Below the pieces are notes generated by a model. The model made no database searches. It had not been told where the DNA came from and worked only from the letters and a program-made list of their open reading frames with translations. The position numbers and the translations under genes were made by a program. From assembly GCA_026993525.1 (NCBI GenBank), contig JALWSS010000194.1, forward strand, positions 1 through 38,870: a stretch of DNA of 38,870 nt. The letters run 5' to 3'. The number at the start of each line of letters is the position of its first letter. Within the stretch, counting starts at the first letter, position 1. This document shows, piece by piece, positions 442 through 16,415 of this stretch. This DNA is from Saprospiraceae bacterium (lineage in GTDB: Bacteria > Bacteroidota > Bacteroidia > Chitinophagales > Saprospiraceae).

Positions 442-3400
442 TCACTCCTGCAATCCCCACACCCACTTCCCATTGAGGTCGAAGTAGCCCACCTTGTCGC
501 CTTGTTCCACGCGGAAGAGGCCTTCGCCGGCGTAGCTGATGTATTCGTAATCGGGTTGGAGGATGAGTTCACCCCGGAGGTTGGTCACGCCGTTGAAGCC
601 CCGGATTCGCACTTTGGCGAAGCCATCTTCGAACTGCTCGATGCGGTCGTATTTGGGAGGGATAATTTCGATGCCCTGCTGGTTGATGACGGCCCACCGG
701 CCGTCAATTTTCACCACGGCCATTCCGTAGCGGAAGCGGCTGGCTTTTTCGTAAAAGCCGTCGTAAAAGCGGTTTTGCTCGGTGATGTAGTAAAACTGGT
801 ACTTCTCATCGCGCACCAGTCCGCGGCCTTCGTTGAAATCAATGAGGCGGTTGATGCCGGGTTCAATGATGTAATTGCCCTGGTGGTCAATGAGTCCGGC
901 CCGGCGCCCGCCTTTGAAAACGATGGCTTTGCCCTGCTGAAAGTCCATGCACCGGCTGAACACCGGTTCGATCACGATTTTTCCGGAACGGTCAATGAAT
1001 CCGCAGCGGCCATCCACCCACACAGCCGCTTTCCCTTCGGAAAAATCGGAAGCTTTTCGGAAAGATGCCTTGATGGCCACCCGTCCGGCCGTATTGATGA
1101 AACCGAACGCATCGCCCAGTTGCACTTTTGCCAGCCCTTCGTGAAACTCACCGATGAAGCGGAAGGGGTCGGAAGTGATGAGGTCGCCACGCAGGTTGAG
1201 CAGGGCGTATTTCGTGGGCGAGCCACCCAGGGCTACCACCGCCAGGCCGTTGCCGTCAAATTTTCCGATGGAAAGGAAGCGGGGCCTGGAAATGTAATTG
1301 CCCCCGGTATCTATCAGTCCGGCACGCATGTAATCGCCCGCCATCTTCTCAACCACCGCCACACCCCGGTCGAACTCATGGGCCCTCGGGAACTGCGGTT
1401 CTATGGCCCACTGCCCGGTGCGGTTGATGTAGCCGTAAAAAGGTCCGGCTTTTTTGGCAGGGGCCAGGCCGTTGCCAAAGCGGCCTGCTTTGGCGTATTG
1501 AAAAGGCAGTTCCTCGTTGCCGTTCTTGTCTATGTAGCCCCATTTGGAGCCGAGGCGTACGGCTGCAAGCCCTTCACTGAACCCGGAGACTTCGTCAAAG
1601 CGACAGGGTACCACCTCCAGGCCGTTGCGGTCCACAAAGCCCCAGCGGCCGCTGCGCTTCACAGCCAGCCTTCCTTCGGTAAATGAGCCGAGTGCTTCGT
1701 ACCGGGCGCTGACGGCCAGTTGGCCGAGCGAGTCAATCAGCCCGTATTTGTGTTCTTTTTTGAAAATGCGGAGCACCTTGTTGCCGGTGTTTTCCATGAA
1801 GCCCAGCTCGTCGAAACGGCAGGGCAGCACTTCTTTGCCGGCCTTGTTCACCATGCCCCATTTGTCATCCTGGGCCACAATGCCCACCTCGTTCACGAAA
1901 TCCCTGGCGAAACTGTATTGCGGAGCGACCCGGAAATTGCCGAGGGTGTCAATGTACCCCCATTTGCAATCCCGGCAAGTGAGCAGACCCCGGGCCTCCA
2001 GGTCGAGGTCGTATTGGGTGTAATCCGTCAGTGAAACCGGGATCATGTGCGAGGAAAGGTATTCTTTGAGCAAGCCCAGGTGGCGGTCCGTGCGGGGCGG
2101 CACTGCGCTCAGCCGGCCTTTGAGAGAAGCCCTGGCGAGGCCATCCCTGTATTCACCGATGTAGGCAAAGCCTTTCAGCAGCACCTTGCCAATTTTGTTG
2201 ACCAGTCCATGCCTTCCGTCGGAAAAAATGCAGCGGGCAGCGGGCAGCCCATCGTAGAAATCGTCCAGCCGGATGTCCACAATGTCCACTTCGTGAACCA
2301 GCAGGCCGGTATCGTTCTGCACCAGGCCGTAAGCCATTTCATAACGGAAGCTGGTGCGGTCAAAAACCACGGGTTGCGACTGCTGCACTCCGGCCAGGGT
2401 CAGGCCGATATCTCTGAGCACCTGCACTTCGTCAAAGGAGGGTTCAATTTGCACTTCCCCGTTGTCGAGGCGGCGCAGGCCCCATTTGTTGTGTTTGTTG
2501 GAATAAAACCACTCGAATTTTTCGAGCTGGTAGATGTTCTGGTTCCAGGTCGGAAACCAGTCTCGGCTGCCGTCGGGCACCACCCTGATGGAGAAAAAAT
2601 TACCGAAGGCATTTTCATCGTCGAGGTAGCCCCTGTTGTCGAGGTGAAAGACGGTCAGTTTACCACCTGCCAGGGCCCTGATCTCCCGTTCTTTCAGTTC
2701 CAGGTTGTCGTAGAGCGGGTCCACGATTTTGAACCCGAAAGCATTCACGGCCCCTCGCAGGCCATTGGCAATGACCACCGCCACGTTGCCGCTCAGCGGC
2801 GAAATGTAGTCGTATTCAAAAGGCAGGATCAACTCGTCGTCGTGGCCCACCAGGCCCCAGCGGTTGTTCATCTTTACCCGGAATATTTCACCACTGAAGG
2901 CCTGCACCTCGTCGTACTGGGGCGAGAGCACCGTTTTGCCACAGTGGTCAATCAGGCCCATCCGGCGGTTTTTCCGGCACAGGGCATATTCATCAGAAAA
3001 CGGGTAGTAATTGTCGTGTTCGCCTTCGGCAACCACTTTGTAATAAAGCAGCGAGAAAAGGGTTGTTTTTCCGTCGGAGATGAGCTTGAGGTAGTTGTCG
3101 GAAAGCTTGCTGAAATACTGGTAGCGGGGTTCCAGAATTTCGGTGCCGGTGTCGTCGCAGGCTCCCCATCGCAGGTTCTTTTTTGCGAAGAAGAGAAAAT
3201 CGTTGTAGGGCCTGATCTCACTGGCCACGGGCTTCAGAATGACTTTGCCGTTTTCGTGCAGCAGCCCGAAACGTTCGTTCTGCCGGGTGAGAATGTAGGT
3301 GCCGGTCATCCATTCCGGCAGTGGTTTCAGCACCTTCAGTTCATCGTATTTCGGTTCTGCCAGCAAGCGGCCATCGGCGCTCACCAGGCCCCACAGCCCG

Positions 3401-3819
3401 TTTTTGCTGAAGCTGATGGCCCGCCAGTTTCCGTTCCGCAAGACTTCCACCTGGTCGTAGCCGGGTGCCAGCACCATCCGGCCGGCCATGTCAACCACTT
3501 TCCACTCGCCGTGCTCCATCACAGCCAGGAAGAGGGAGTCCAGCACCTTGAGGTCGTCGTATCCGGGAGGTACCACCTCTTCACCCGTCTTCGACAACAG
3601 CCCTACCCTGCCCTGGCGCTGCATCACGGCATAGCCGTAATGTTTGAACTCACCAATGGCATCGTAAATGGCAGGCCTTACCAGGTAGCCCCCGGCATTC
3701 ATCAGGCCCCATTTCTTGTTTTGCTTGATGGGAAATACCGTCTGCGCCTTCATTGCCGAAGGCAAGAAATGACATAAGATCAGGAGTATTGAAAAAACAG
3801 GCGCCGTACGAGAAAACAT
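442..3819 (-). CDS. secreted WG-repeat protein (about two dozen repeats)
   Basis: 1125 residues starting at the ATG at 3819; an in-frame TTG lies just upstream. The N-terminus is a Sec signal peptide (about residues 1-26, hydrophobic core then A-x-A-Q), so the protein is exported. Nearly all the rest is tandem WG/KWG-type repeats of about 45-55 residues. Each has the pattern (K/R)-W-G-(L/Y/F)-(I/V)-(D/N)..G-(K/N), followed by a P..(Y/F)D or F-x-E-G motif; I count about 25 recognisable units, several degenerate. WG repeats are common in Bacteroidota, have no known enzymatic activity, and are thought to form propeller- or ligand-binding surfaces. No T9SS sorting domain is visible at the C-terminus, which ends within a repeat. 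The gene stands alone between repeat-rich noncoding regions. Function is unknown. Confidence 0.9.
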   Translation of the reverse strand: MFSRTAPVFSILLILCHFLPSAMKAQTVFPIKQNKKWGLMNAGGYLVRPAIYDAIGEFKHYGYAVMQRQGRVGLLSKTGEEVVPPGYDDLKVLDSLFLAVMEHGEWKVVDMAGRMVLAPGYDQVEVLRNGNWRAISFSKNGLWGLVSADGRLLAEPKYDELKVLKPLPEWMTGTYILTRQNERFGLLHENGKVILKPVASEIRPYNDFLFFAKKNLRWGACDDTGTEILEPRYQYFSKLSDNYLKLISDGKTTLFSLLYYKVVAEGEHDNYYPFSDEYALCRKNRRMGLIDHCGKTVLSPQYDEVQAFSGEIFRVKMNNRWGLVGHDDELILPFEYDYISPLSGNVAVVIANGLRGAVNAFGFKIVDPLYDNLELKEREIRALAGGKLTVFHLDNRGYLDDENAFGNFFSIRVVPDGSRDWFPTWNQNIYQLEKFEWFYSNKHNKWGLRRLDNGEVQIEPSFDEVQVLRDIGLTLAGVQQSQPVVFDRTSFRYEMAYGLVQNDTGLLVHEVDIVDIRLDDFYDGLPAARCIFSDGRHGLVNKIGKVLLKGFAYIGEYRDGLARASLKGRLSAVPPRTDRHLGLLKEYLSSHMIPVSLTDYTQYDLDLEARGLLTCRDCKWGYIDTLGNFRVAPQYSFARDFVNEVGIVAQDDKWGMVNKAGKEVLPCRFDELGFMENTGNKVLRIFKKEHKYGLIDSLGQLAVSARYEALGSFTEGRLAVKRSGRWGFVDRNGLEVVPCRFDEVSGFSEGLAAVRLGSKWGYIDKNGNEELPFQYAKAGRFGNGLAPAKKAGPFYGYINRTGQWAIEPQFPRAHEFDRGVAVVEKMAGDYMRAGLIDTGGNYISRPRFLSIGKFDGNGLAVVALGGSPTKYALLNLRGDLITSDPFRFIGEFHEGLAKVQLGDAFGFINTAGRVAIKASFRKASDFSEGKAAVWVDGRCGFIDRSGKIVIEPVFSRCMDFQQGKAIVFKGGRRAGLIDHQGNYIIEPGINRLIDFNEGRGLVRDEKYQFYYITEQNRFYDGFYEKASRFRYGMAVVKIDGRWAVINQQGIEIIPPKYDRIEQFEDGFAKVRIRGFNGVTNLRGELILQPDYEYISYAGEGLFRVEQGDKVGYFDLNGKWVWGLQE

Positions 3820-3973
3820 CAAGGTTCCGGTTTTCTGCGAACAAGTTGATTTTAATCAGCAGACCGTCAATTTGACAGGTAATTGTTTTGCAAAGGAAGA
3901 AAATATCCGAATGATATAACCCGGTGCACCCAAAAGAAACGCAAGTTGCCCGACAAGCGGTGCTTTGTTAACA

Positions 3974-5796: not shown

Positions 5797-8358
5797 TCAG
5801 CCCGGCACATCCACCAGGCTGCCAAAGAAGAGGGCGTTGAAGAACAGGCGGTTGGTGCCGTACCAGAAGCCTCTGAAGTTGGGATTGTCAACAAAGAGGA
5901 TGGCGCGCCCGCGCCCCACCCTGCTCACCAGCAGCGAGGCGGTGTTGGCCACCGATGGCAGGTTGTCCGGATGCACATAACCGTCAATCTGAGGCCCATT
6001 GCCGTACGCCACCACGGTGCTGAAAGGATTTTCCGAAGGCTCTGCAAAGATTTCGTGGTTGCGATAGACGGGCAGCCGGCGGTCTTTCAGGCCAAAGGCC
6101 AGGGGGTGACTGATGTCGGCATCGGCCATGAAAACCACCCCGCCGATGCGCTTTGAACCCAGTATTTCCCGGGCCCTTTCAAAATCGGTTCGCTTCGCAA
6201 TGGGGCGTTCTCCTTCGGGCTTTTCCCGGAGTTTTGCATCCACCAGATTGCGCTCGATTGCCCAGCGGGTGGCCTGCCGGATGGTGATGAGCGTGTTGCC
6301 GCCTGAAAGCCAGTTTCTCAAGTCTGCCAGCTGCCGGTCGGAAAAATCGTAGCGACCGGAAACCAGCACCAGCGTGTTGTAATTGTGCAGGTTGAGGCGC
6401 CGCAGATCATTCACATCCACTTTGGTGATGGGCATTCCCACCCGTTGATCCAACAGGTGCCAGACCTCGCCCGCTTCATAACCCGAAACGCCTTCGCCCA
6501 CTATCATCACCGCTTTGGGCATCTGTACCGTCTCAAACCGGCGGCTGCCGAGGTCTATACCCTCCAGGCTCCGCCCCGATGAAACGGCATAAATCCGGAT
6601 GCCGTGCTGCTCATGGGCTTGTTGCATGAGCGCTTGCAAGCGGTCCTGGCCCAGGCCCTGATCGGCCACGGAAATGAGCAGGGTGCCACGGCCGAAGGAG
6701 CGCCTGCCCGCACTCGTCTGAGCATCGAAAGGTGCAAAAGCCGTTTTCACGTGCACGCCGTTGCGAAGCAAAAAATACAATGCGCCGGGAGCGGCGTAAT
6801 CCTTCCAGGGAATCAGCCAGGCGTACTCAGCCGCTGGCACCGGCACCACCGGCCGGGCTGTGTCATCTTCTGACAATGGGCGGCCCAATTTGGGCAATTG
6901 CCGCAGGCGATGGTAATCGAGGTCAAAAGCGAGGGCGACCGTCCAGGCAGAGGCATCGTAGAACACGCTGTCGGGGATGTCCTCATTGGTGCGGGGCTCG
7001 AAAAAGCTCATGGCCATGCGCCACTGTGTTTGTGCCGAAGGCACTACGAAAGCCCGCTCCGCCTTCCAGGTTTTGTTTCCTTCGGTAAAATCCTCTGCCA
7101 GCCGGTAGGCTTCAATATGGTGGTGCCGCAGCAGGTCCAGGAATGCCCGCATGCGGGTGGGGTCCTGCCAATCGTCAAACACCCAGCCTTTCACCGGTGT
7201 TTTCCGGGCCTGTTCCAGTGCCGATTCAAAAAACCAACGCTGGTATTCCAAAAGTTTCCGGCGGTTTTTTACGGCCGCCTGGATGGTGGCCATGCTGGTG
7301 CGCAACTGGTTTCGAATGGTAAATGCAAACGAGAGTTTTTCCGTGCTGGTGCTTTGCAGGTGGCCCCGGGAGCTTGCCTGTTCAAAAAGCAACCCCAGCC
7401 CGCCCTCTATATCCGGGTAGGTGGAGCCATATCCGGGATAGCTGTTGTCGTAGCTTTCGCGGGTGTAATAGAGCGACCCGATGTCGTCCAGGGCATCCCG
7501 GTAGTATTCTGCAAATAGGTTGTTCAGCTCGTCGTAATTGCGGCGGGGCACCAACGGATTTTCCGAACCAAAGGGCTCCGTCGGCTCAAAAAAATAGGTG
7601 GAATTGGTGCCCATTTCGTGATAATCGGTGGCCACATTGGGCAGCCACTTGTGATAGAATTGCACCCTGTTGCGGCTCTCCACATGGGTCAGTGGCAGCC
7701 AGTCCCTGTTCAGGTCAAACCAGTAGTGGTTGGTTCGGCCACCGGGCCAGACTTCGTTGTGCTCCCGGTCCAGCGGGTCGGCCACGGGTGGGTTGGCCAG
7801 GTGCATGTTGGCCCAGTGGGTGTGGCGGTCACGGCCATCGGGATTGTACACCGGGTCAATGTGAACCACGGCATTTTGGAGGTAGCCAGCCACCTGCGGC
7901 GATTGCGAAGCGACCAACCACCAGGCCGTGAGCATGGCTGCCTCGGCGCTGGAAGCCTCGTTGCCGTGCACGCCGTAGCCCATGAGCACCACCACGGGTT
8001 CCTTTCCGGCATCCGGCATCTTTTCTTCTGGTTCCGAAAACAGGAGGTGCTGCTGCCGGATGTCCTCCAGCCGGGCCAGATTTTCCGGATCGCTCACCGT
8101 GAGTACCACCTGCGGGCGGTGCTCCCAGGTGTACCCGATAACCTGAAACTGCGCCTTCGGTGAAACTTCGGCCAGGTATTGAAAATAGGCCACCAGCCGG
8201 TCGTGGCGGGTGTGGCGCCGGCCAATTTCGTAGCCGAGGAATTCGGCAGGCCGCTGAATGGAGTTGTCAAACTTCTCCCCTTCGGGAAAAAAGTAACCGG
8301 TTTGACCAAAAGAGGTCGTTGCCAGAATGGTGAAGAAAAGGAAAGCGATGCAGCGCAT
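5797..8358 (-). CDS. M14 family zinc carboxypeptidase-like exported protein
   Basis: 853 residues with a short signal peptide (about residues 1-18, ending S-F-G-Q). The M14 fold has its zinc ligands: H131-x-x-E134 in GVHGNEASS and H247 in TDYHEMGTN. The catalytic Glu is probably E326 in LLFEQASS. FDLNRDW (214-220) is characteristic of the Bacteroidota subgroup. About 450 residues follow the catalytic domain, including a glutamine-amidotransferase-like beta/alpha segment (around 620-700) and a C-terminal beta-rich end. This layout is usual for large periplasmic M14 proteins of the phylum. It probably trims peptides outside the cytoplasm. It lies 65 bp after the P1 peptidase and 22 bp before the RNA ligase-like gene, so the three probably form one operon. 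Confidence 0.9.
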   Translation of the reverse strand: MRCIAFLFFTILATTSFGQTGYFFPEGEKFDNSIQRPAEFLGYEIGRRHTRHDRLVAYFQYLAEVSPKAQFQVIGYTWEHRPQVVLTVSDPENLARLEDIRQQHLLFSEPEEKMPDAGKEPVVVLMGYGVHGNEASSAEAAMLTAWWLVASQSPQVAGYLQNAVVHIDPVYNPDGRDRHTHWANMHLANPPVADPLDREHNEVWPGGRTNHYWFDLNRDWLPLTHVESRNRVQFYHKWLPNVATDYHEMGTNSTYFFEPTEPFGSENPLVPRRNYDELNNLFAEYYRDALDDIGSLYYTRESYDNSYPGYGSTYPDIEGGLGLLFEQASSRGHLQSTSTEKLSFAFTIRNQLRTSMATIQAAVKNRRKLLEYQRWFFESALEQARKTPVKGWVFDDWQDPTRMRAFLDLLRHHHIEAYRLAEDFTEGNKTWKAERAFVVPSAQTQWRMAMSFFEPRTNEDIPDSVFYDASAWTVALAFDLDYHRLRQLPKLGRPLSEDDTARPVVPVPAAEYAWLIPWKDYAAPGALYFLLRNGVHVKTAFAPFDAQTSAGRRSFGRGTLLISVADQGLGQDRLQALMQQAHEQHGIRIYAVSSGRSLEGIDLGSRRFETVQMPKAVMIVGEGVSGYEAGEVWHLLDQRVGMPITKVDVNDLRRLNLHNYNTLVLVSGRYDFSDRQLADLRNWLSGGNTLITIRQATRWAIERNLVDAKLREKPEGERPIAKRTDFERAREILGSKRIGGVVFMADADISHPLAFGLKDRRLPVYRNHEIFAEPSENPFSTVVAYGNGPQIDGYVHPDNLPSVANTASLLVSRVGRGRAILFVDNPNFRGFWYGTNRLFFNALFFGSLVDVPG

Positions 8359-9693: not shown

Positions 9694-9724
9694 TTTTGAG
9701 ACTTAATTGTCTGAATTAAATTTG
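9694..9724 (+). promoter_or_regulatory. Bacteroidota-type promoter with overlapping dyad operator, upstream of nod
   Basis: TAAATTTG at 9717-9724 fits the -7 consensus TAnnTTTG, and TTTG at 9695-9698 fits the -33 element with an 18-bp gap. Between them lies an imperfect inverted repeat TTGAGAC-N6-GTCTGAA (9696-9715, 6 of 7 positions symmetrical). Its layout resembles sites of Crp/Fnr-family regulators, which include NO sensors. A repressor or activator site at this location is inference. Confidence 0.5.
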
Positions 9725-9945
9725 CACCGTTGACATTCAACCCCATCCAGCTACATTGAGCAGCCATCCCCATTGAGCCATGCCACTATGTCAGCCACTG
9801 ATCCAAAAGGTATCCATCCGAATTCCGGTTTCAAGGTGTAAGTGCGAGTCACTTAAAAAGAAAGGCCCTCATCTGAATTTAAGACTTAAAACGCTTAAAA
9901 AACGATGTGATCCGGGCCTTCCGCCTGTAACCTCATAGTTTCACC

Positions 9946-9979
9946 GACCAGGCATAAAGTGAGTCTCAACCGCCTGGTC
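9946..9979 (+). promoter_or_regulatory. 5' leader hairpin before nod
   Basis: Perfect 8-bp stem GACCAGGC (9946-9953) / GCCTGGTC (9972-9979). The 18-nt loop itself contains TGAGTCTCA. The stem ends 17 nt before the ATG at 9997, so folding could affect ribosome access. The rest of the 9534-9996 gap holds no convincing gene. Confidence 0.4.
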
Positions 9980-9996
9980 ATAAATCAAAAATCACC

Positions 9997-12396
9997 ATGA
10001 AGCAGGAGAACAATGGAAGTTTGAATGGCGCCAGGAAAGGGATTGACTACTTTATGAACACCAAAAACTGGTGGCAGCCATTGCTTTTCATCCTCATTAT
10101 CAGTGTGGCAGGAGTTGGAATGATAGGTTTTCAAACTTACAACGACGCTCCTCCGATGACCGGCTTTTCGGCACCCGGCGGCAAAGTACTGATGGACCAG
10201 AATACCATTGAAGCGGGTCAGGAGGTATTCCACAAATATGCCCTGATGGAATATGGGTCGTTCTTTGGCGATGGCGCCCAGCGAGGCCCGGATTTTACTG
10301 CCGAAGCCCTGCATCAGATCACGGTGTTCATGCAGGAGTACCATGAAAAGGAATTTGAAACACAAAACGGCCGTGCCCCTAGCGATATGGAGCGGCAGAT
10401 CATCACTGAAAACATCAAAAGTGAACTAAAAACCAACAGGTATGATGAAAGCAACAACCTGGTTGAACTCACGCCTGCACAGGCTTATGCACTGGAAAAA
10501 CTGAAAGGCTACTACATTGATCATTACATCGTCAACAATGACGATCCTTCGTTTCCTCCTCCGGGCTATTTTTCTTCAGAGTCAGAAGTGGCAGACCTGG
10601 CGTCCTTCTTTTTTTGGGGAGCCTGGGTATGCGTTGCGGAGCGACCGGGAGAAAAATTCAGTTATACGCACAACTGGCCCTACGACCCTGTGGCGGGCAA
10701 TACGCCAACATCGCCGGTGGTACTATGGAGTGTTCTGGGCATGCTGGCCTTCGTGCTGATGTGTGGTATCGTGCTGTATTTCATTGGTCAGTACAACCAA
10801 TTGCCCAACAAATTCTTCAAGCCTCCCCAGAAGGAGCTCCTGACCCTTGAGCGGGTGAAAAACTTCAAACCAACCAAAACACAGCGGGCTACATACAAAT
10901 TCTTTGCTGTGGCAGCAGCGCTGTTTTTCGTACAGGTACTGAGTGGCATTGTCACCATCAACGATTTTGTGAACTTCCTGGGCTACATTGGAATATATCC
11001 CCAGGAAATCTTTCCGGTGGTTATGAGCCGGAGTTGGCACCTAATGTTGTCACTGTACTGGATTTCCACCTGCTGGATAGCTTCTTCCATTTTTATTTTA
11101 CCCATCATTTCAAAAAAGGAAATACCCGGTCAGTTGCGACTCGTCAATACCTTGTTCTGGGGCTTGTTCATCCTGGTTGCAGGATCGCTGACAGGCATGG
11201 TTCTCGGCCCCAGGGGAACTTTGGGCGAGTGGTGGTACTGGCTTGGCCATCAGGGCTGGGAATTCGTTGACTTCGGCAAGGCCTTTCAGGTGTTGCTGAT
11301 GGGCATCTTTGCACTTTGGGTAGCAGTGGTTTACCGGGGCATCAAGCCGGCGCTCATAAAAGGTCAGCCCTGGAACATTCCCAACTGGATTCTCTACTCC
11401 GTAATAGGTATTCCTGCGCTTTTCCTTTCCGGGTTTGTGGCCCAGCCGGAGACGAATTTCGTCATCACCGATTTCTGGCGCTGGATGGTAATCCACATGT
11501 GGGTGGAAGCATTTTTCGAGGCGTTCATCACTGTGATCATCAGCTACCTGATGGTGCTGATGGGTCTGGTGAGCAGGCAAGCGGCCATCCGGGTGGTCTT
11601 TTTTGCCACCATTCTCTTCCTCGGAACCGGCCTGCTGGGCATATCCCACAATTTCTACTGGAATGCCAAGCCGGTGGCCACCATGGCTCTGGGTTCTGTC
11701 TTCTCAACCATGCAGTTCGTGCCCCTCATTCTGCTGACGGTGGAAGCCTGGCGATTTAAAAACATGCCCCGGGCTGCCATCAACGGCATAGCGAAGAAGA
11801 ACCTGGGCAATTTCGGATTTCAGGAAGTGTTCATGTTTCTGGTAGCCGTCAACTTCTGGAACTTCTTTGGAGCAGGTGTAATGGGCATCATCATCAACCT
11901 GCCCATCATGAATTATTTTGAGCATGGTTCTTACCTGACCATCAATCACGCCCACGCTGCATTAATGGGGGTTTACGGCAACATTTCACTCGCTGCACTG
12001 TTGTTTGCCTCAAAACTGATTTTGAAAGAACCACGCTGGAACCACAAACTCATCATGACTGCTTTCTGGTCAATCAACATTGGCCTTATGCTTATGGTGA
12101 TCCTGGACCTTTTCCCGGCCGGATCCATACAATTCAAAGCTATCGTTGACAATGGGCTGTGGTACGGACGTTCCCACCATTTCATCGGAAGCGGCATCTT
12201 TGAAACCCTGACCTGGTTGAGAGGCATTGGAGCCACGGTATTCTTCCTGGGTGGAGTTATTCCCATTACCTGGTTCATGCTTACCCGGTGGAATTCTCTA
12301 AAACCATCTGTGGAAACGGTGGAAGACCTGGATGACCTGCCAAAGAAACCGGCCGAAACAGCGCATCGGCCTTCGCAGACGGAAGTGATGGCTTAG
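9997..12396 (+). CDS. nod: nitric oxide dismutase-like protein (qNOR superfamily)
   Basis: 799-residue heme-copper-superfamily membrane protein with qNOR layout: one N-terminal TM helix (about 26-46), a large periplasmic domain without a CxxCH heme site (47-240), then 12-13 TM helices. Heme ligands H348, H651 and H653 (N-H-A-H) and FeB ligands H500 and H551 with E504 are present. Residues that define true quinol-dependent NO reductases are changed. The quinol-site H-Y-x-V-E motif is I-N-D-F-V-N here (His to N322, Glu to N326). The third quinol-site Asp is A746. The second His of the catalytic HH pair is Asn (S-H551-N552-F-Y-W), and the pocket Glu of the E-P-L-P segment is Q573. Loss of the quinol site plus His-to-Asn is the established signature of NO dismutase (2 NO to N2 + O2), as described in Methylomirabilis, HdN1 and a flavobacterium. 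Without that comparison it would be labelled qNOR/NorZ. Activity is inference. Standalone gene with its own promoter and terminator. Confidence 0.82.
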   Translation: MKQENNGSLNGARKGIDYFMNTKNWWQPLLFILIISVAGVGMIGFQTYNDAPPMTGFSAPGGKVLMDQNTIEAGQEVFHKYALMEYGSFFGDGAQRGPDFTAEALHQITVFMQEYHEKEFETQNGRAPSDMERQIITENIKSELKTNRYDESNNLVELTPAQAYALEKLKGYYIDHYIVNNDDPSFPPPGYFSSESEVADLASFFFWGAWVCVAERPGEKFSYTHNWPYDPVAGNTPTSPVVLWSVLGMLAFVLMCGIVLYFIGQYNQLPNKFFKPPQKELLTLERVKNFKPTKTQRATYKFFAVAAALFFVQVLSGIVTINDFVNFLGYIGIYPQEIFPVVMSRSWHLMLSLYWISTCWIASSIFILPIISKKEIPGQLRLVNTLFWGLFILVAGSLTGMVLGPRGTLGEWWYWLGHQGWEFVDFGKAFQVLLMGIFALWVAVVYRGIKPALIKGQPWNIPNWILYSVIGIPALFLSGFVAQPETNFVITDFWRWMVIHMWVEAFFEAFITVIISYLMVLMGLVSRQAAIRVVFFATILFLGTGLLGISHNFYWNAKPVATMALGSVFSTMQFVPLILLTVEAWRFKNMPRAAINGIAKKNLGNFGFQEVFMFLVAVNFWNFFGAGVMGIIINLPIMNYFEHGSYLTINHAHAALMGVYGNISLAALLFASKLILKEPRWNHKLIMTAFWSINIGLMLMVILDLFPAGSIQFKAIVDNGLWYGRSHHFIGSGIFETLTWLRGIGATVFFLGGVIPITWFMLTRWNSLKPSVETVEDLDDLPKKPAETAHRPSQTEVMA

Positions 12397-12461
12397 AGCC
12401 CGTTACCTTTCCATTACCCGGCTGCAACTGCGTAAGAAAAATCCAAATAGGCTCTTTGAAT

Positions 12462-12497
12462 GGGCAACCCTGGAGACAGGGTTGCCCGTATTTTTTG
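12462..12497 (+). terminator. Rho-independent terminator of nod
   Basis: Perfect 10-bp stem GGGCAACCCT / AGGGTTGCCC (12462-12471 with 12478-12487), 6-nt loop, then GTATTTTTT. The U-tract direction makes it a plus-strand terminator. It sits between convergent nod and the ABC ATPase gene, whose stop is at 12499. Confidence 0.9.
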
Positions 12498-12498
12498 C

Positions 12499-13182
12499 TC
12501 AGCGTCGCTCATCCTTCGCAATTTCTCCATCCACCAGGCTGAGCACCCGGCGGGCACGCTCGATGACCCGGCTGTCGTGGGTGGAAAAAATGAAGGTGAT
12601 CCCTTCCTCCCGGTTGAGTTGTTCCATAATGTCGAGCAGGTTAAAAGCGGACTTGCTGTCAAGGTTGGCGGTGGGTTCATCAGCCAGGATAAAGGATGGC
12701 TTTGGCGCCAGCGCCCGGGCCACGGCCACCCGTTGTTGCTGGCCGCCGGAGAGTTCTGACGGCCTTTTGTCCATTTTATCCTCCAACCCGACGGCTTTCA
12801 GCAATTCTTCCACCCGCCGTTCCCTTTCGGGCTTTGGCCGCTTTTGGAGCAACATCACAAATTCTGTGTTTTCAGCCACATTGAGAACAGGAATCAGGTT
12901 GTAGCTCTGAAACACAAAGCCAATGTTCTTCTGACGAAAGTCAATCAACTGATTATCGGTGAGTGTACTGAGGTCAATGCCATCCACCCGTATCTTGCCC
13001 TCCGTAGGTCTGTCCAGGCCCCCGATAATGTTCAAAAGGGTGGTCTTTCCCGAGCCGGATGGCCCGATGATGGCGGTAAATTCCCCTTTTTCAACTGTCA
13101 GGTCAACGCCTCTGAGTGCATGAACGGGTACTTTGTCCGGGTTGTAGGTTTTCGTAAGTCCGTGTGCTTCTATGATGGGCAT
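12499..13182 (-). CDS. ABC transporter ATPase, LolD/MacB type
   Basis: 227 residues from the ATG at 13182. A longer in-frame reading to 13380 exists only because the upstream TTGTTGAA repeat is open on this strand, and it gives a low-complexity Asn/Gln/Ser leader. All ATPase motifs are present: Walker A GPSGSGKTT (40-48), Q-loop Q92, signature LSGGQQQR (144-151), Walker B FILADEP (164-170) and switch H202. Sequence and size fit the LolD/MacB/FtsE branch, which powers extraction of lipoproteins or export across the envelope. It is the last gene of the operon with two FtsX-type permeases and a LolA-like protein, so it should energise that complex. A 228-bp repeat-filled spacer separates it from the upstream permease. 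Confidence 0.92.
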   Translation of the reverse strand: MPIIEAHGLTKTYNPDKVPVHALRGVDLTVEKGEFTAIIGPSGSGKTTLLNIIGGLDRPTEGKIRVDGIDLSTLTDNQLIDFRQKNIGFVFQSYNLIPVLNVAENTEFVMLLQKRPKPERERRVEELLKAVGLEDKMDKRPSELSGGQQQRVAVARALAPKPSFILADEPTANLDSKSAFNLLDIMEQLNREEGITFIFSTHDSRVIERARRVLSLVDGEIAKDERR

Positions 13183-13410
13183 GGGAGATTGTTGAGATTG
13201 TTGAATTGTTGATCCCGAAGCCGATACCGAAAGCTTTCGGCATCGGCTTTCGGGAGTTGAATTGTTGAATTGTTGAATTGTTGAATTGTTGAAAGTTGTG
13301 AGCTTGCTCACGATCCCGGACTTGATCCGGGATTGAGATTGTTGATCCCGAAGAAATTTCGGGATCGGGGCATCCCTCATCCCTCATTCCTCATCCCTCA
13401 TTCCTCAAGA
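13183..13410. repeat. repeat-filled spacer: TTGTTGAA octamers, nested palindromes, GATGAGG-type heptamers
   Basis: Whole spacer between permease and ATPase genes. It contains a TTGTTGAA array (about 13185-13295) interrupted by a nested palindrome at 13209-13256 (CCGAAAGCTTTCGG core). A hairpin pair GTGAGCTTGCTCAC (13298-13311) and ATCCCGGA..TCCGGGAT (13313-13333) follows, then a CCCGAA..TTCGGG palindrome near 13345-13365 and a short ATCCCTC/ATTCCTC heptamer array. The hairpin pair recurs at 32564-32600. Confidence 0.85.
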
Positions 13411-14649
13411 TCACACTTTCTGCAAAGCCTCCACCGGCCTCAACCTGATGGCTTTAAGGGCCGGGTAGAGCGAGGCCAGCAGGGCAGTTACGAACACCGC
13501 CACAGCTATTTGCAAATAGAGTTCTGTTGATAAAAGGGGGTATACCACGGTGTCCAGGCCGAAACGTTCCATTCCCTTTGCGAAGGCAGAAAGATCAATG
13601 CCATTGTCTTTGAGCAGGAACACTGTCAGCCAGCCCAGGCCGAGGCCCAGGGGTGCCGCCACCATTCCGAGGAAAAGAGTTTCTAGCACCACCATGGCAA
13701 ATACTTTTGGTTTGTTCATCCCTATTGCCATGAGCATCCCGAGCTCACGGTAGCGTTCCAAAACTGCCATGAGCATGGTGTTGACGATTCCGAAAATGAG
13801 CGCCAACATGAAAATGGTGATCATGATGGTATTGGAGAGCTGGATTTGCGACTCGTACAGTTCGATGTCCGGTGAAAGCTCGCGGTAATCCTGCACCTGT
13901 AGATTTCCGAAGCTGGCCTGCAAGCGTTTCTTTACCGGAAGGAGCTCATCCGTATTGTGCAAAAAAATGGCAATTTCATGGATGAATTCTCCCGGATTTT
14001 CGGACGGGTTTTCAGAACTCATCAGATGTGATTGCAGCGTTTTTCTCTTCACAAACACCCGCCCTTCGTCAAACAGCATGTTGCCGGTGGAGAACAGCCC
14101 TACCACCCTGAATGCCACGCTGGTAATGGTGCCATCGAGGTTTTGGAAAGTCACCACCACCCTGTTGCGGAGGCCTACTTTCAAGCGTTCCGCTGTCCGG
14201 CGGCTGAGGATGATCTCAGACTTCCGTTTCTGGCTGAAGTATCCGCCTTCCACAATTTCCGATTCCAGGTGGGTGACAGCGGTTTCCAATTCCGGGTCAA
14301 CACCGACCACTTCCACCCCGCTGGCACCCCGGCTGGAACTGACCATACCGCTCACAATGGTGCGGGGTGTAACGGCCTGCACCTCCGGCATCCCGGCCAA
14401 ACTGTCCAGCACCTCATCAGCGTTGCTGATGTAATATTTCACCAGCTTGTCTTCGGAAAATCCGGGATGGTGTACCTGCAAATGAGACCACTGGTCCCTG
14501 ATGGCATTCTCGATGTATGAATAAGTCATGCCCAGCGAAAAGCTGAGAATGAACGCCAATGCCCACACCCCCATCGCAATGGACAGGATGACCACAAAAC
14601 TCCGGGTCTTGCTTCTCCAAATGTTCCGCCAGGCGATTTTTAATAGCAT
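13411..14649 (-). CDS. FtsX/LolC-type ABC transporter permease
   Basis: 412 residues. The N-terminal TM helix (about 17-40) follows the A-W-R-N-I-W-R-S-K motif common in this family. A large MacB-type periplasmic domain (about 45-265) follows, then three C-terminal TM helices (about 275-400) ending RLRPVEALQKV. That is the LolC/LolE/MacB layout. It pairs with the neighbouring permease gene, probably as a heterodimer like LolCE, on the ATPase encoded downstream. The substrate could be lipoproteins, given the LolA-like protein at the head of the operon, or another envelope cargo. The start at 14649 directly precedes the conserved motif. Confidence 0.9.
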   Translation of the reverse strand: MLLKIAWRNIWRSKTRSFVVILSIAMGVWALAFILSFSLGMTYSYIENAIRDQWSHLQVHHPGFSEDKLVKYYISNADEVLDSLAGMPEVQAVTPRTIVSGMVSSSRGASGVEVVGVDPELETAVTHLESEIVEGGYFSQKRKSEIILSRRTAERLKVGLRNRVVVTFQNLDGTITSVAFRVVGLFSTGNMLFDEGRVFVKRKTLQSHLMSSENPSENPGEFIHEIAIFLHNTDELLPVKKRLQASFGNLQVQDYRELSPDIELYESQIQLSNTIMITIFMLALIFGIVNTMLMAVLERYRELGMLMAIGMNKPKVFAMVVLETLFLGMVAAPLGLGLGWLTVFLLKDNGIDLSAFAKGMERFGLDTVVYPLLSTELYLQIAVAVFVTALLASLYPALKAIRLRPVEALQKV

Positions 14650-14857
14650 TTTGTAGGGTTTAGGGTGTAGGGTTTAGGGTGTAGGGTGTAGGGTTTAGGG
14701 TGTAGGGTTTAGGGTGTAGGGTTTAGGGTTTCGTCATAACCCTCCATAACCCTTCATCCCCGATAAAAATCGGGGCCATAACCCCTCATCCCCGATGAAT
14801 ATCGGGGTCATAACCCCCCATAATCCTCATCCCCGATAAAAATCGGGGTCATAATTC
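14650..14857. repeat. repeat-filled spacer: TAGGGTT/TAGGGTG heptamers and three CCCCGAT hairpins
   Basis: Entire spacer between the two permease genes. A heptamer array covers about 14653-14731. Three imperfect repeats of about 35 bp follow, each holding a CCCCGAT..ATCGGGG hairpin at 14758-14775, 14790-14807 and 14831-14848. The loops differ (AAAA, GAAT, AAAA). Confidence 0.9.
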
Positions 14858-16066
14858 TCACTCCCTCATTGCCTTCACAGGCACCAGTTTCATCACATAC
14901 CACACGCTGTAAAAGGACAGGATGCTACTGATGATAAAAATAACCTCGGCCTGCGCCAGGAAAATGCCGAATTCATAAGCCGCTTTCATCACGGGTTCGA
15001 TGCCGTACTGTTCATAGGCTTCTGCCAACTTGCCGGAAAGCTGGATGGGTGAGCTGTACAACTTCCACACAATGGGCCAGCTCAACAAAATGCCTATGCC
15101 AGCCCCTACCAATCCGATCAGTACACTTTCGAACCACAACATGGCTCCCATGGTACTCCGGTGGGTACCTATGGCCAGCATGACCCCGAATTCGTAGGTG
15201 CGCTCCCGGGTCATCATCAGGATGGTACCGAAAAGACCTGCTCCGATCAGGGCGTACAGCACCCAAAGTATCAGCTTCGCACCTGCTGTATCCAGCTTTT
15301 GCGCTTCGATGAGTTCCGGCATCAACTCGCGGTAGTCCATCACTTCAAACCGGTCCGGGGGAAATATGCGGTGCATCCTTTCCAGGGCATCATCCAGGTC
15401 ATCCCTGCCGTTGGGCAAGTTGACGACGAGGGAGGTGTAGCGCTCGCCGGTGCCGTAGAAATATTGCGCCAGCGAAAGCGGCATTACCACCAGTTGTTTG
15501 TTCAGATCGGGAGCACCAAATCTGACGATGGCCTGAATGGGATATGCACCGGCTGCGTTTTGTCCCTGATAACCCTGACTAATCATCACAAGCGTATCGC
15601 CAAGTTTTAGTTTCAGGTGCCCGGCCAGGCCTTCGGCCACCATGACGCCCTGGTCGTCAGCTTTCAGGTACACTCCTTCCACTACCCGCTCGTGCAAGCT
15701 TGATATTGTACGTTCTTTTCCAGGGTCAACGCCTATGACCAAAACCCCTTTTGTAATATCACCAGCGCTGGCAAGGGCAAATGATTCGATGCGGGGCACA
15801 ATTTCGGGATCATTCATTGCTGCAGCCGGAATGTCTTCCAGTGCCATGGTGTTTTCGAGGGTCTTGTCGTCCCAAAAGCCTTTGTGGTGAACCTGTATAA
15901 ACCCGAGGTAATAGCGGACCACGTTGTCTATCATGTGATCCCAGGTGCCTTTCTGAAAAGAGGAAATAACGGCAGAAAAGAGCACGGCAAACGCTACCGA
16001 AGAAATTGAAATGATGGTTCTTCGCTTGTTTCTCCAGAGGTTTCGCCATGCAAGTTTTACAAACAT
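14858..16066 (-). CDS. FtsX/LolC-type ABC transporter permease
   Basis: 402 residues from the ATG at 16066. The in-frame extension to 16162 is translated octamer repeat and is rejected. Same design as the 13411-14649 permease: an initial L-A-W-R-N-L-W-R-N-K motif with a TM helix (about 17-40), a periplasmic MacB-like domain, and three C-terminal TM helices ending MKLVPVKAMRE. The two permeases are clearly paralogous but well diverged, as LolC and LolE are. It precedes the second permease and the ATPase in the operon, with a 208-bp repeat spacer after it and a 349-bp repeat spacer before it. Confidence 0.9.
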   Translation of the reverse strand: MFVKLAWRNLWRNKRRTIISISSVAFAVLFSAVISSFQKGTWDHMIDNVVRYYLGFIQVHHKGFWDDKTLENTMALEDIPAAAMNDPEIVPRIESFALASAGDITKGVLVIGVDPGKERTISSLHERVVEGVYLKADDQGVMVAEGLAGHLKLKLGDTLVMISQGYQGQNAAGAYPIQAIVRFGAPDLNKQLVVMPLSLAQYFYGTGERYTSLVVNLPNGRDDLDDALERMHRIFPPDRFEVMDYRELMPELIEAQKLDTAGAKLILWVLYALIGAGLFGTILMMTRERTYEFGVMLAIGTHRSTMGAMLWFESVLIGLVGAGIGILLSWPIVWKLYSSPIQLSGKLAEAYEQYGIEPVMKAAYEFGIFLAQAEVIFIISSILSFYSVWYVMKLVPVKAMRE

Positions 16067-16415
16067 ATTTTTTTGAGGAACTGAGGAACTGAGGAACTGA
16101 GGATTTGAGGAACTGAAGAACTGAGGATTTGAGGAACTGAGGATTTGAGCCCCGATAGCCATCGGGGGAGGAACTGAGTGCCCCGATCCCGACGAATGTC
16201 GGGATCAAATCCTCGATTCTTCAATTCCTCCCCCGATGCCGATTATTATCGGCACGGGGTTCGATTCCTCGATTCTTCGATTCCTCAATTCTTCGATTCC
16301 TCGATTCTTCAATTCCTCGATTCTTCAATTCCTCGATTCTTCAATTCTTCGATTCTTCGATTCCTCCCCCGATGCCGATTATTATCGGCACGGGGTTCGA
16401 TTCCTCAATTCCCCA
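16067..16415. repeat. repeat-filled spacer: GAGGAACT octamers in both orientations plus palindromes
   Basis: 349 bp between the LolA-like gene and the first permease. GAGGAACT/GAGGATTT octamers occupy about 16073-16148, followed by palindromes at 16148-16167 and about 16183-16205. The same kind of octamer in inverse orientation (TCCTCGAT/TCTTCAAT) continues to 16415. Two identical GCCGATTATTATCGGC palindromes sit inside the second half near 16235 and 16375. No gene is present. Confidence 0.9.

Follow-up and report, generated by a model that had tools for sequence, protein, structure and literature searches.

The stretch of DNA considered here (the window) comprises 38,870 nucleotides, positions 1 to 38,870 of contig JALWSS010000194.1 from a Saprospiraceae bacterium (assembly GCA_026993525.1). 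On its forward strand an open reading frame (ORF) at 9997-12396 runs from ATG to TAG with no internal stop and encodes a 799-residue protein, in which Pfam recognises the NorB cytochrome c-like domain PF22085 and the COX1 domain PF00115; the heme c motif CxxCH is absent from the translation. The fold and domain order are those of the quinol-dependent nitric oxide reductases (qNOR, or NorZ). On the sequence criteria examined and on phylogeny, however, the protein is almost certainly a member of the nitric oxide dismutase (Nod) family, and we refer to the gene as nod. It stands alone, with a divergent neighbour upstream and a convergent one downstream. The coding features are as follows.

9997-12396 (+): nod, 799-residue protein assigned to the Nod family, with the qNOR fold, a cytochrome c-like N-terminal domain without CxxCH, and a COX1 domain
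10960-10974 (+): codons Asn322 to Asn326, the quinol-site positions occupied by His328 and Glu332 in the qNOR structure 3ayf, by alignment
11650-11652 (+): codon Asn552, in place of the FeB-ligand His560, by alignment; Asn in 80 of 80 relatives
11713-11715 (+): codon Gln573, in place of the catalytic-pocket Glu581, by alignment
12232-12234 (+): codon Ala746, in place of the quinol-site Asp746, by alignment

Among solved structures the best match is the G. stearothermophilus qNOR, PDB code 3ayf (HMMER alignment, E 7.8e-160, from which the 3ayf residue numbers are taken). Asn552 replaces the FeB ligand His560 and Gln573 replaces Glu581 of the pocket, whilst at the quinol site Asn322, Asn326 and Ala746 correspond to His328, Glu332 and Asp746. 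Three further pairs, His500/His508, Glu504/Glu512 and His551/His559, are unchanged, and His348, His651 and His653 are also retained. The original prediction had named each of these substitutions and each retained residue, and the alignment agrees with it throughout. It had also described the alignment to qNOR motifs as free of gaps; that is correct for the motif blocks themselves and incorrect for the stretches between, where two single-residue gaps fall between the quinol-site block and the catalytic block, with more gaps between Gln573 and Ala746. None of the NCBIfam models at E 0.001 reports the window protein, which is uninformative because the genuine qNOR of Cupriavidus pHG1 is not reported either.

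An AlphaFold2 model built from 45 aligned sequences has a mean pLDDT (predicted local distance difference test) of 79 and a pTM (predicted TM-score) of 0.82, and its best match in the PDB is again 3ayf (Foldseek TM-score 0.86/0.91, 36% identity). The model supports the overall qNOR fold. It says nothing on active-site geometry, because pLDDT is low exactly around the altered residues, only 52-66 over residues 541-590 where Asn552 and Gln573 sit.

A scan of genome_contigs with six peptide patterns, one of which contains the HN motif and favours Nods, gave 256 stretches encoding relatives, of which the best 80 were analysed (L-labels denote loci, G-labels genomes). Asn552 and Gln573 are present in all 80. 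Eight loci carry a stop inside the tblastn range (L016, L027, L046, L047, L053, L065, L077 and L078; L046 is also short). For residue counts and phylogeny nine duplicates were dropped together with 19 rows shorter than 700 residues, five of them Nods (L046, L051, L054, L092 and L101), leaving 81 Nod rows, the window protein included, and 23 qNOR rows. Of the latter, 20 are stretches taken from 296 sampled genomes of the phylum, one (L109) came out of the same search and two are encoded on plasmids. As rows were sorted by residue 552 itself, the split at that position is true by definition; residue 573 follows it in 104 of 104 rows, being Gln in 81 of 81 Nods and Glu in 23 of 23 qNORs. The two sets differ diagnostically at 17 positions.

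The quinol site is less uniform. At position 322 the Nod rows have Asn (52), His (27) or Thr (2), where all 23 qNORs have His; at position 746 they have Ala (52), Gly (27), Ser (1) or a gap (1), and Asp, found in 23 of 23 qNORs, occurs in no Nod row. Among the rows that keep His322, 26 form part of a second Nod clade, some 52-55% identical to the window protein, and the remaining one is from Cerina litoralis (L033). The original prediction took loss of the quinol site with a His-to-Asn change to be the published signature of Nod. This agrees with the accessible text of Ettwig 2012 (PMC3413370), where the signature is defined and Muricauda ruestringensis listed, and a residue list for Nod is also given in the part of PMC10286720 available; as a family mark the quinol-site His-to-Asn change fails, because 27 of 81 Nod rows keep the histidine. 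Judged by these rows it is a trait of one subclade, and the dependable Nod marks are Asn552 and Gln573.

A tree of the 104 rows, a quick maximum-likelihood search with support by the Shimodaira-Hasegawa-like approximate likelihood ratio test (SH-aLRT) only, separates the 81 Nods from the 23 qNORs with a value of 100. The window protein lies in a clade of ten (SH-aLRT 97) with nine rows from Saprospiraceae, Lewinellaceae or unplaced Bacteroidota, itself nested in a clade of 53 (SH-aLRT 100) that holds three Muricauda species, 70-71% identical to the window Nod, and Robiginitalea. As regards the phylogenetic check suggested in the original prediction, the tree groups the protein with the Nod-type proteins of the three Muricauda species and apart from the 23 qNORs; the M. 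oxyfera and HdN1 sequences lie outside it. The gene is under purifying selection: against six relatives the proportion of nonsynonymous differences (pN) is 0.12-0.16 and that of synonymous differences (pS) 0.73-0.82, with dS saturated or near saturation.

Several placements in the tree deserve mention in their own right. The nods of Indibacter alkaliphilus LW1 (L077) and Cecembia lonarensis LW9 (L078) are near-identical, at a tree distance of about 0 and with an Rrf2 gene in the same place, which may reflect recent transfer or cross-contamination of assemblies; NosZ is over cut-off in just one of the two genomes. In the group of L015, L030 and L053, Nods from metagenome-assembled genomes (MAGs) labelled Thermoanaerobaculia and Chlorobiota fall amid Bacteroidota rows, for which misbinning or transfer are possible explanations. 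The Bacteriovoracaceae MAG of L053 (Nod 61% identical) also encodes two qNORs, a cNorB-like protein, NirS and NosZ. The Planctomycetota genome of L082 has a second Nod-like protein (G443:C48:3455-5731), 44% identical to the window Nod, besides one of 54%.

Signals for expression of nod in the window are:

9695-9724 (+): promoter of the Bacteroidota type, TTTG-N18-TAAATTTG, by pattern match, the spacer holding the palindrome AGACTTAATTGTCT at 9699-9712
9879-9898 (+): second, imperfect site TTAAGACTTAAAACGCTTAA, a putative operator matching 12 of 16 motif positions
9946-9979 (+): leader hairpin GACCAGGC...GCCTGGTC with an 8 bp stem, -14.8 kcal/mol, z -3.57 and -3.09
12460-12496 (+): intrinsic terminator, by sequence inspection, with a 13 bp stem (12460-12489) and a T-rich tail

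TTTG/TAnnTTTG is the Bacteroidota promoter type. The promoter pattern occurs three times in the window against 0.95 expected, and at least three times in five of 100 shuffles. The palindrome AGACTTAATTGTCT is a probable repressor operator, although its pattern alone is at chance frequency (two found, 1.8 expected). The second site sits 99-118 bases 5′ of the start codon and resembles sites in relatives, where sequences like TTAAGACA-N4-TGTCTTAA recur upstream of nod; 28 of 67 regions match at 12 or more of 16 positions, compared to a mean of 2.2 and a maximum of seven regions in the shuffle control. That count is partly circular since the motif was read by eye from regions later counted; in 20 clade 2 regions not used for reading it, five matches were obtained. 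FNR-type sites (TTG-N8-CAA) were also considered and proved inconsistent among the regions compared. The leader hairpin is not a conserved family element, the median z over 47 leaders, the window's included, being -0.26 with four below -2; the leaders of L003 and L008 are among the low values. The signals, together with the orientation of the neighbours, substantiate the earlier description of a standalone gene with its own promoter, leader hairpin and terminator.

The regulator probably belongs to the Rrf2 family. In 47 of the 80 loci (a raw count) a gene of this family is found no more than 9 kb from nod, and in 26 of the 64 loci that have at least 1.5 kb on both sides the distance is 1.5 kb or less. 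Pfam was run on one of these genes and on the window genome's own copy. All 51 Rrf2 ORFs near nod carry the three-cysteine pattern C-x5-7-C-x4-6-C, as in iron-sulfur (Fe-S) Rrf2 proteins. Other genes of the type associated with nitric oxide (NO) stress occur near nod, hemerythrin-type in 15 and globin in six of the 80 loci, and NrdD genes are found in 14. According to the accessible text of PMC13386854, the nod genes of FEN-1191 and of Cecembia calidifontis have NsrR next to them, and a detoxification role is suggested.

Around the window's own nod no Rrf2 gene was seen out to 9 kb. One Rrf2 gene of this genome (L150:11308-11763) is instead oriented divergently from the nos cluster, next to GGACAAGTATGTCC. 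Six other nos loci, from five distinct genomes (L119 and L147 are one genome), have an Rrf2 gene in five instances and the palindrome RGAC-N6-GTCY in two. With the 16-position operator pattern neither the window genome's nos promoter nor the region upstream of its norC stands out, the best matches lying elsewhere (12 positions in L150, 11 in L149); the nos palindrome is visible only with the looser RGAC-N6-GTCY, itself at chance frequency in the window. Shared control of nod and nos is suggestive only.

The window genome (G000; 5.16 Mb in 230 contigs, 100% complete, 0.17 contamination) gives context for the source of NO. There is no match to cytochrome d1 NirS and no NirK over the cut-off (best 42 bits against 296), and NrfA, considered as an NO source, is absent. 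Present are a clade II NosZ within a nos cluster and an operon resembling norC-norB-norQ-norD-norE, the gene names being given by resemblance. The cNOR-type NorB at L149:831-2165 belongs to the same NOR superfamily as the window Nod and is 26% identical to it over 293-709, but it keeps the His-His pair and the glutamate (row L002), has a NorC-like neighbour and lies in that norCBQDE-like operon. On a search that covered NirS, NirK and NrfA, the organism appears to consume NO and nitrous oxide (N2O) without being a denitrifier. Since none of the three was found, NO from neighbouring cells is probable. This gene content argues against self-made NO in the host and for the handling of external NO; it does not separate N2 plus O2 from N2O as products.

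The distribution of Nod is wider than first thought. The original prediction held homologues to be known in very few lineages, a statement that does not stand given the 256 stretches with relatives, Nod in 11 of 120 genomes of the host's family, and Bacteroidota Nods already in print. In those 120 genomes there were no matches of the 30-36% identity class to which qNORs belong; matches of Nod length are all at least 70% identical to the window Nod. NosZ is over the cut-off in 40 of the 120, divided as 11 of 11 genomes with Nod, eight of eight with a cNorB-like protein and no Nod, and 21 of 101 with neither. Two genomes that are congeners of Nod genomes and in which Nod was not found (G113 and G119) have NosZ. 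Strong NirS (E below 1e-100) occurs in two of the 120 and NirK over the cut-off in four, one of each in a Nod genome, so that Nod genomes seldom have a nitrite reductase (two of 11), yet the others have one no more often (four of 109).

A similar picture is obtained from 33 Nod genomes hand-picked from the 80 loci, of unstated completeness: NosZ in 30, NirK over the cut-off in seven, strong NirS in three (eight over the loose Pfam cut-off), a cNorB-like protein in eight and qNOR in one. In the phylum sample NosZ is found in 99 of 296 genomes, in eight of 24 qNOR genomes and in six of 11 cNorB genomes. Among the 24, the gene of G128 has a stop and that of G180 is in two pieces, and the sequences of G144, G128 and G180 are not among the rows of the tree. 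Pooled, 40 of 44 genomes with Nod have NosZ, as do 96 of 292 without it. NirS or NirK is present in 12 of 41 Nod genomes, and in 30 of the 41 the Nod query finds no NOR-family protein other than Nod itself; the totals of 44 and 41 are hand counts minus three genomes seen twice, with kinship ignored. The nosZ of one Nod genome (G061) has an in-frame stop, and a 58-residue piece of 50% identity in G307 was left out of the Nod count. A specific Nod-NosZ partnership was considered and rejected, as cNorB genomes without Nod carry NosZ also. By this pattern NosZ accompanies NO-consuming enzymes, whether Nod or cNorB, and in this respect Nod resembles a NOR. Carriage on mobile elements was likewise rejected: no viral_contigs stretch matches the patterns, and all 318 plasmid records fall below 60% identity, the best of the 60 listed reaching 35%.

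Taken together, these observations lead us to favour, with a fair degree of conviction, a Nod, probably NO-inducible, that handles external NO in a non-denitrifying N2O reducer. The enzyme has a quinol-NO-reductase fold from which the quinol site, one of the FeB histidines and the glutamate of the catalytic pocket have gone, and would most likely carry out, at heme b3/FeB, the electron-free dismutation 2 NO → N2 + O2 that is the chemistry proposed for the family. The NO would probably be supplied by neighbouring cells, and nod probably repressed by an Fe-S Rrf2 regulator that NO releases. Toxic NO would in this way be disposed of without spending electrons, in a bacterium that could also respire N2O through its clade II NosZ and has a separate cNOR-like operon. 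Oxygen production by the window Nod is inferred from family membership. The NO source and the regulation are inferences too, whereas the residues, the predicted overall fold, the phylogenetic class, the gene inventory of the genome for the families covered and the proximity of Rrf2 genes in relatives were observed.

A number of points weigh against this interpretation. The accessible text of PMC13386854 states that the Nod enzyme has never been isolated and notes some opposing results, and the Nods of Methylomirabilis and HdN1 are outside our tree. The structural model is weak where the two altered catalytic residues sit. With regard to regulation, the Rrf2 count near nod has no base rate for arbitrary loci, and the window genome's own Rrf2 protein, which passes the superfamily cut-off, reaches 31 bits with the NsrR equivalog model, for which the cut-off is 182. 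Of the 19 further ORFs of the window that were compared with Pfam, none was recognisable as an O2-using enzyme. Finally Nod fills the slot of an N2O-forming reductase, with NosZ in 40 of 44 Nod genomes and in all eight family cNorB genomes without Nod, a pattern that leans mildly to an N2O-forming role or to a shared niche.

The last point is the basis of the strongest competing explanation, which we regard as unlikely though worthy of serious attention, namely that the protein is an altered NO reductase which makes N2O with electrons from some donor and feeds the accompanying NosZ. The family division of NosZ, its presence in 40 of 44 Nod genomes against eight of 24 qNOR genomes, and the finding that Nod is so often the sole match of the Nod query would fit such a role. 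Yet the window Nod has neither a quinol site nor a heme c motif by which electrons might enter, all 81 Nods have Gln in place of the glutamate to which a part in NO reduction is ascribed, a cNOR-like operon is already present in the genome, and co-occurrence may stem from a shared N-oxide niche. A little less probable again is that the protein serves mainly to detoxify or bind NO, any net release of O2 being immaterial to the cell. The NO-stress-type genes near nod (Rrf2, hemerythrin-type and globin) and the failure to find NirS, NirK or NrfA in the window genome are consistent with this, but dismutation is itself detoxification and genomic evidence hardly separates the two.

That the gene encodes an ordinary quinol-dependent reductase is very improbable. 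The fold and domain order are alike, and in the available part of PMC9304909 10 of 11 MAGs from three Saprospiraceae genera carry a norZ annotation, with a lone norB annotation; the His-His pair, the catalytic glutamate and the quinol-site His, Glu and Asp are nevertheless missing from the window protein, its clade is separate, no match of the qNOR class turned up in the 120 family genomes, and we consider this identity refuted on sequence. A decayed qNOR, which the loss of several catalytic residues might suggest, can be dismissed, as the original prediction had it, on the intact frame, pN far below pS, identical losses in 81 sequences and the apparent promoter, leader hairpin and terminator.

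Comparisons with known systems place the window gene within, and in some respects apart from, what is described. Nods of Muricauda and the Bacteroidota clades share with it the changes equivalent to H560N and E581Q, an altered quinol site and the fold. Two Bacteroidota clades are reported by Ruff 2024, as quoted in PMC13386854, and nod is noted in Sediminibacterium and Algoriphagus in the part of PMC10264387 available. The window copy differs from the Muricauda Nods (the M. ruestringensis protein being outside the comparison) in that it is standalone and in a genome where NirS, NirK and NrfA were not found. Candidatus Methylomirabilis oxyfera (DAMO_2434/2437) and HdN1, compared through the description in the accessible text of Ettwig 2012, have the published substitutions; unlike those systems, the window shows no methane monooxygenase among the 19 other ORFs put to Pfam. 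With 3ayf and the norB of Cupriavidus necator pHG1 the likeness ends at fold and domain order, the FeB histidine, pocket glutamate and quinol residues being replaced. The Nod family is thus already known in Bacteroidota, and it is the setting, NosZ present and NirS, NirK and NrfA not found, that differs from the usual picture.

In that picture a cell makes NO from its own nitrite and uses the O2 for hydrocarbon oxidation. This seems not to fit most of the Bacteroidota carriers examined, because NosZ is frequent and nitrite reductases are scarce. We put forward, as a tentative generalisation that we hold more doubtful than the reading of the window gene itself, that Bacteroidota Nod stands mostly outside oxygenic denitrification and is an Rrf2-controlled enzyme in the NO-reductase slot of N2O-respiring non-denitrifiers, turning NO from neighbours into N2 and O2 without electrons, or into N2O for NosZ. 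In the excerpted text of PMC9304909 Saprospiraceae MAGs are presented as possible N2O reducers that do not denitrify, and some of them carry norZ by annotation. Because no qNOR was found in 120 genomes of the family, those norZ genes may well be Nods, and some norZ annotations in wastewater MAGs deserve re-reading. If the generalisation is correct, the norZ-listed genes of wastewater Saprospiraceae would be Nods, and these organisms would act as sinks for NO as well as N2O. The accessible part of PMC12569097 lists seven Nor classes without Nod among them, and dismutase is not mentioned in that of PMC10390337. We found no paper on a link of Nod with NosZ or on Nod in Saprospiraceae, though in open-licence literature only, which is weak evidence of novelty. 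The cultivated strains in the clade of the window Nod (Muricauda, Robiginitalea and Cerina) are of particular value since N2, O2 and N2O formed from NO could be distinguished there.

Other genes recur beside nod. In L064, L067, L071 and L072 a COX1-family gene lies about 470 bp from nod, divergent and with a cytochrome c gene between. Kin of the L072 protein (6136-7536, reverse strand) occur in L063, L064, L067, L068 and L071, and in L009 and L036 at 5-6 kb. The possibility that this neighbour of Chitinophagaceae nod is a cNorB of the usual type was rejected, as in the alignment to NorB it has no H-x3-E, and AHTMG where NorB has AHGH, which suggests altered metal sites. A genome-wide search of L064 and L067 with the Nod query missed it. 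Twenty of the 80 loci encode, no further than 9 kb from nod, a member of a protein family of about 605 residues, for example at L010:5511-7325 (+), where the protein has no Pfam or NCBIfam match.

Peroxidase-type genes were not seen adjoining the window nod. Elsewhere, 18 of the 80 loci have a PAP2 family gene near nod, at 300 bp or less in 13 cases (for example L003:6003-7913 (+), and L060:5291-6727 (+) among peroxidase-type genes); these are possibly vanadium haloperoxidases. Animal-type haem peroxidase genes are near nod in seven loci, four within 120 bp. Both kinds are always on the strand of nod. In the window, the convergent neighbour of nod at 12499-16162 (-) consists of an ABC transporter ATPase, recognised by Pfam, and two membrane proteins which we take to be MacB/FtsX-like. 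A 1126-residue protein with 11 matched WG repeats (PF14903) is encoded at 442-3822 (-).

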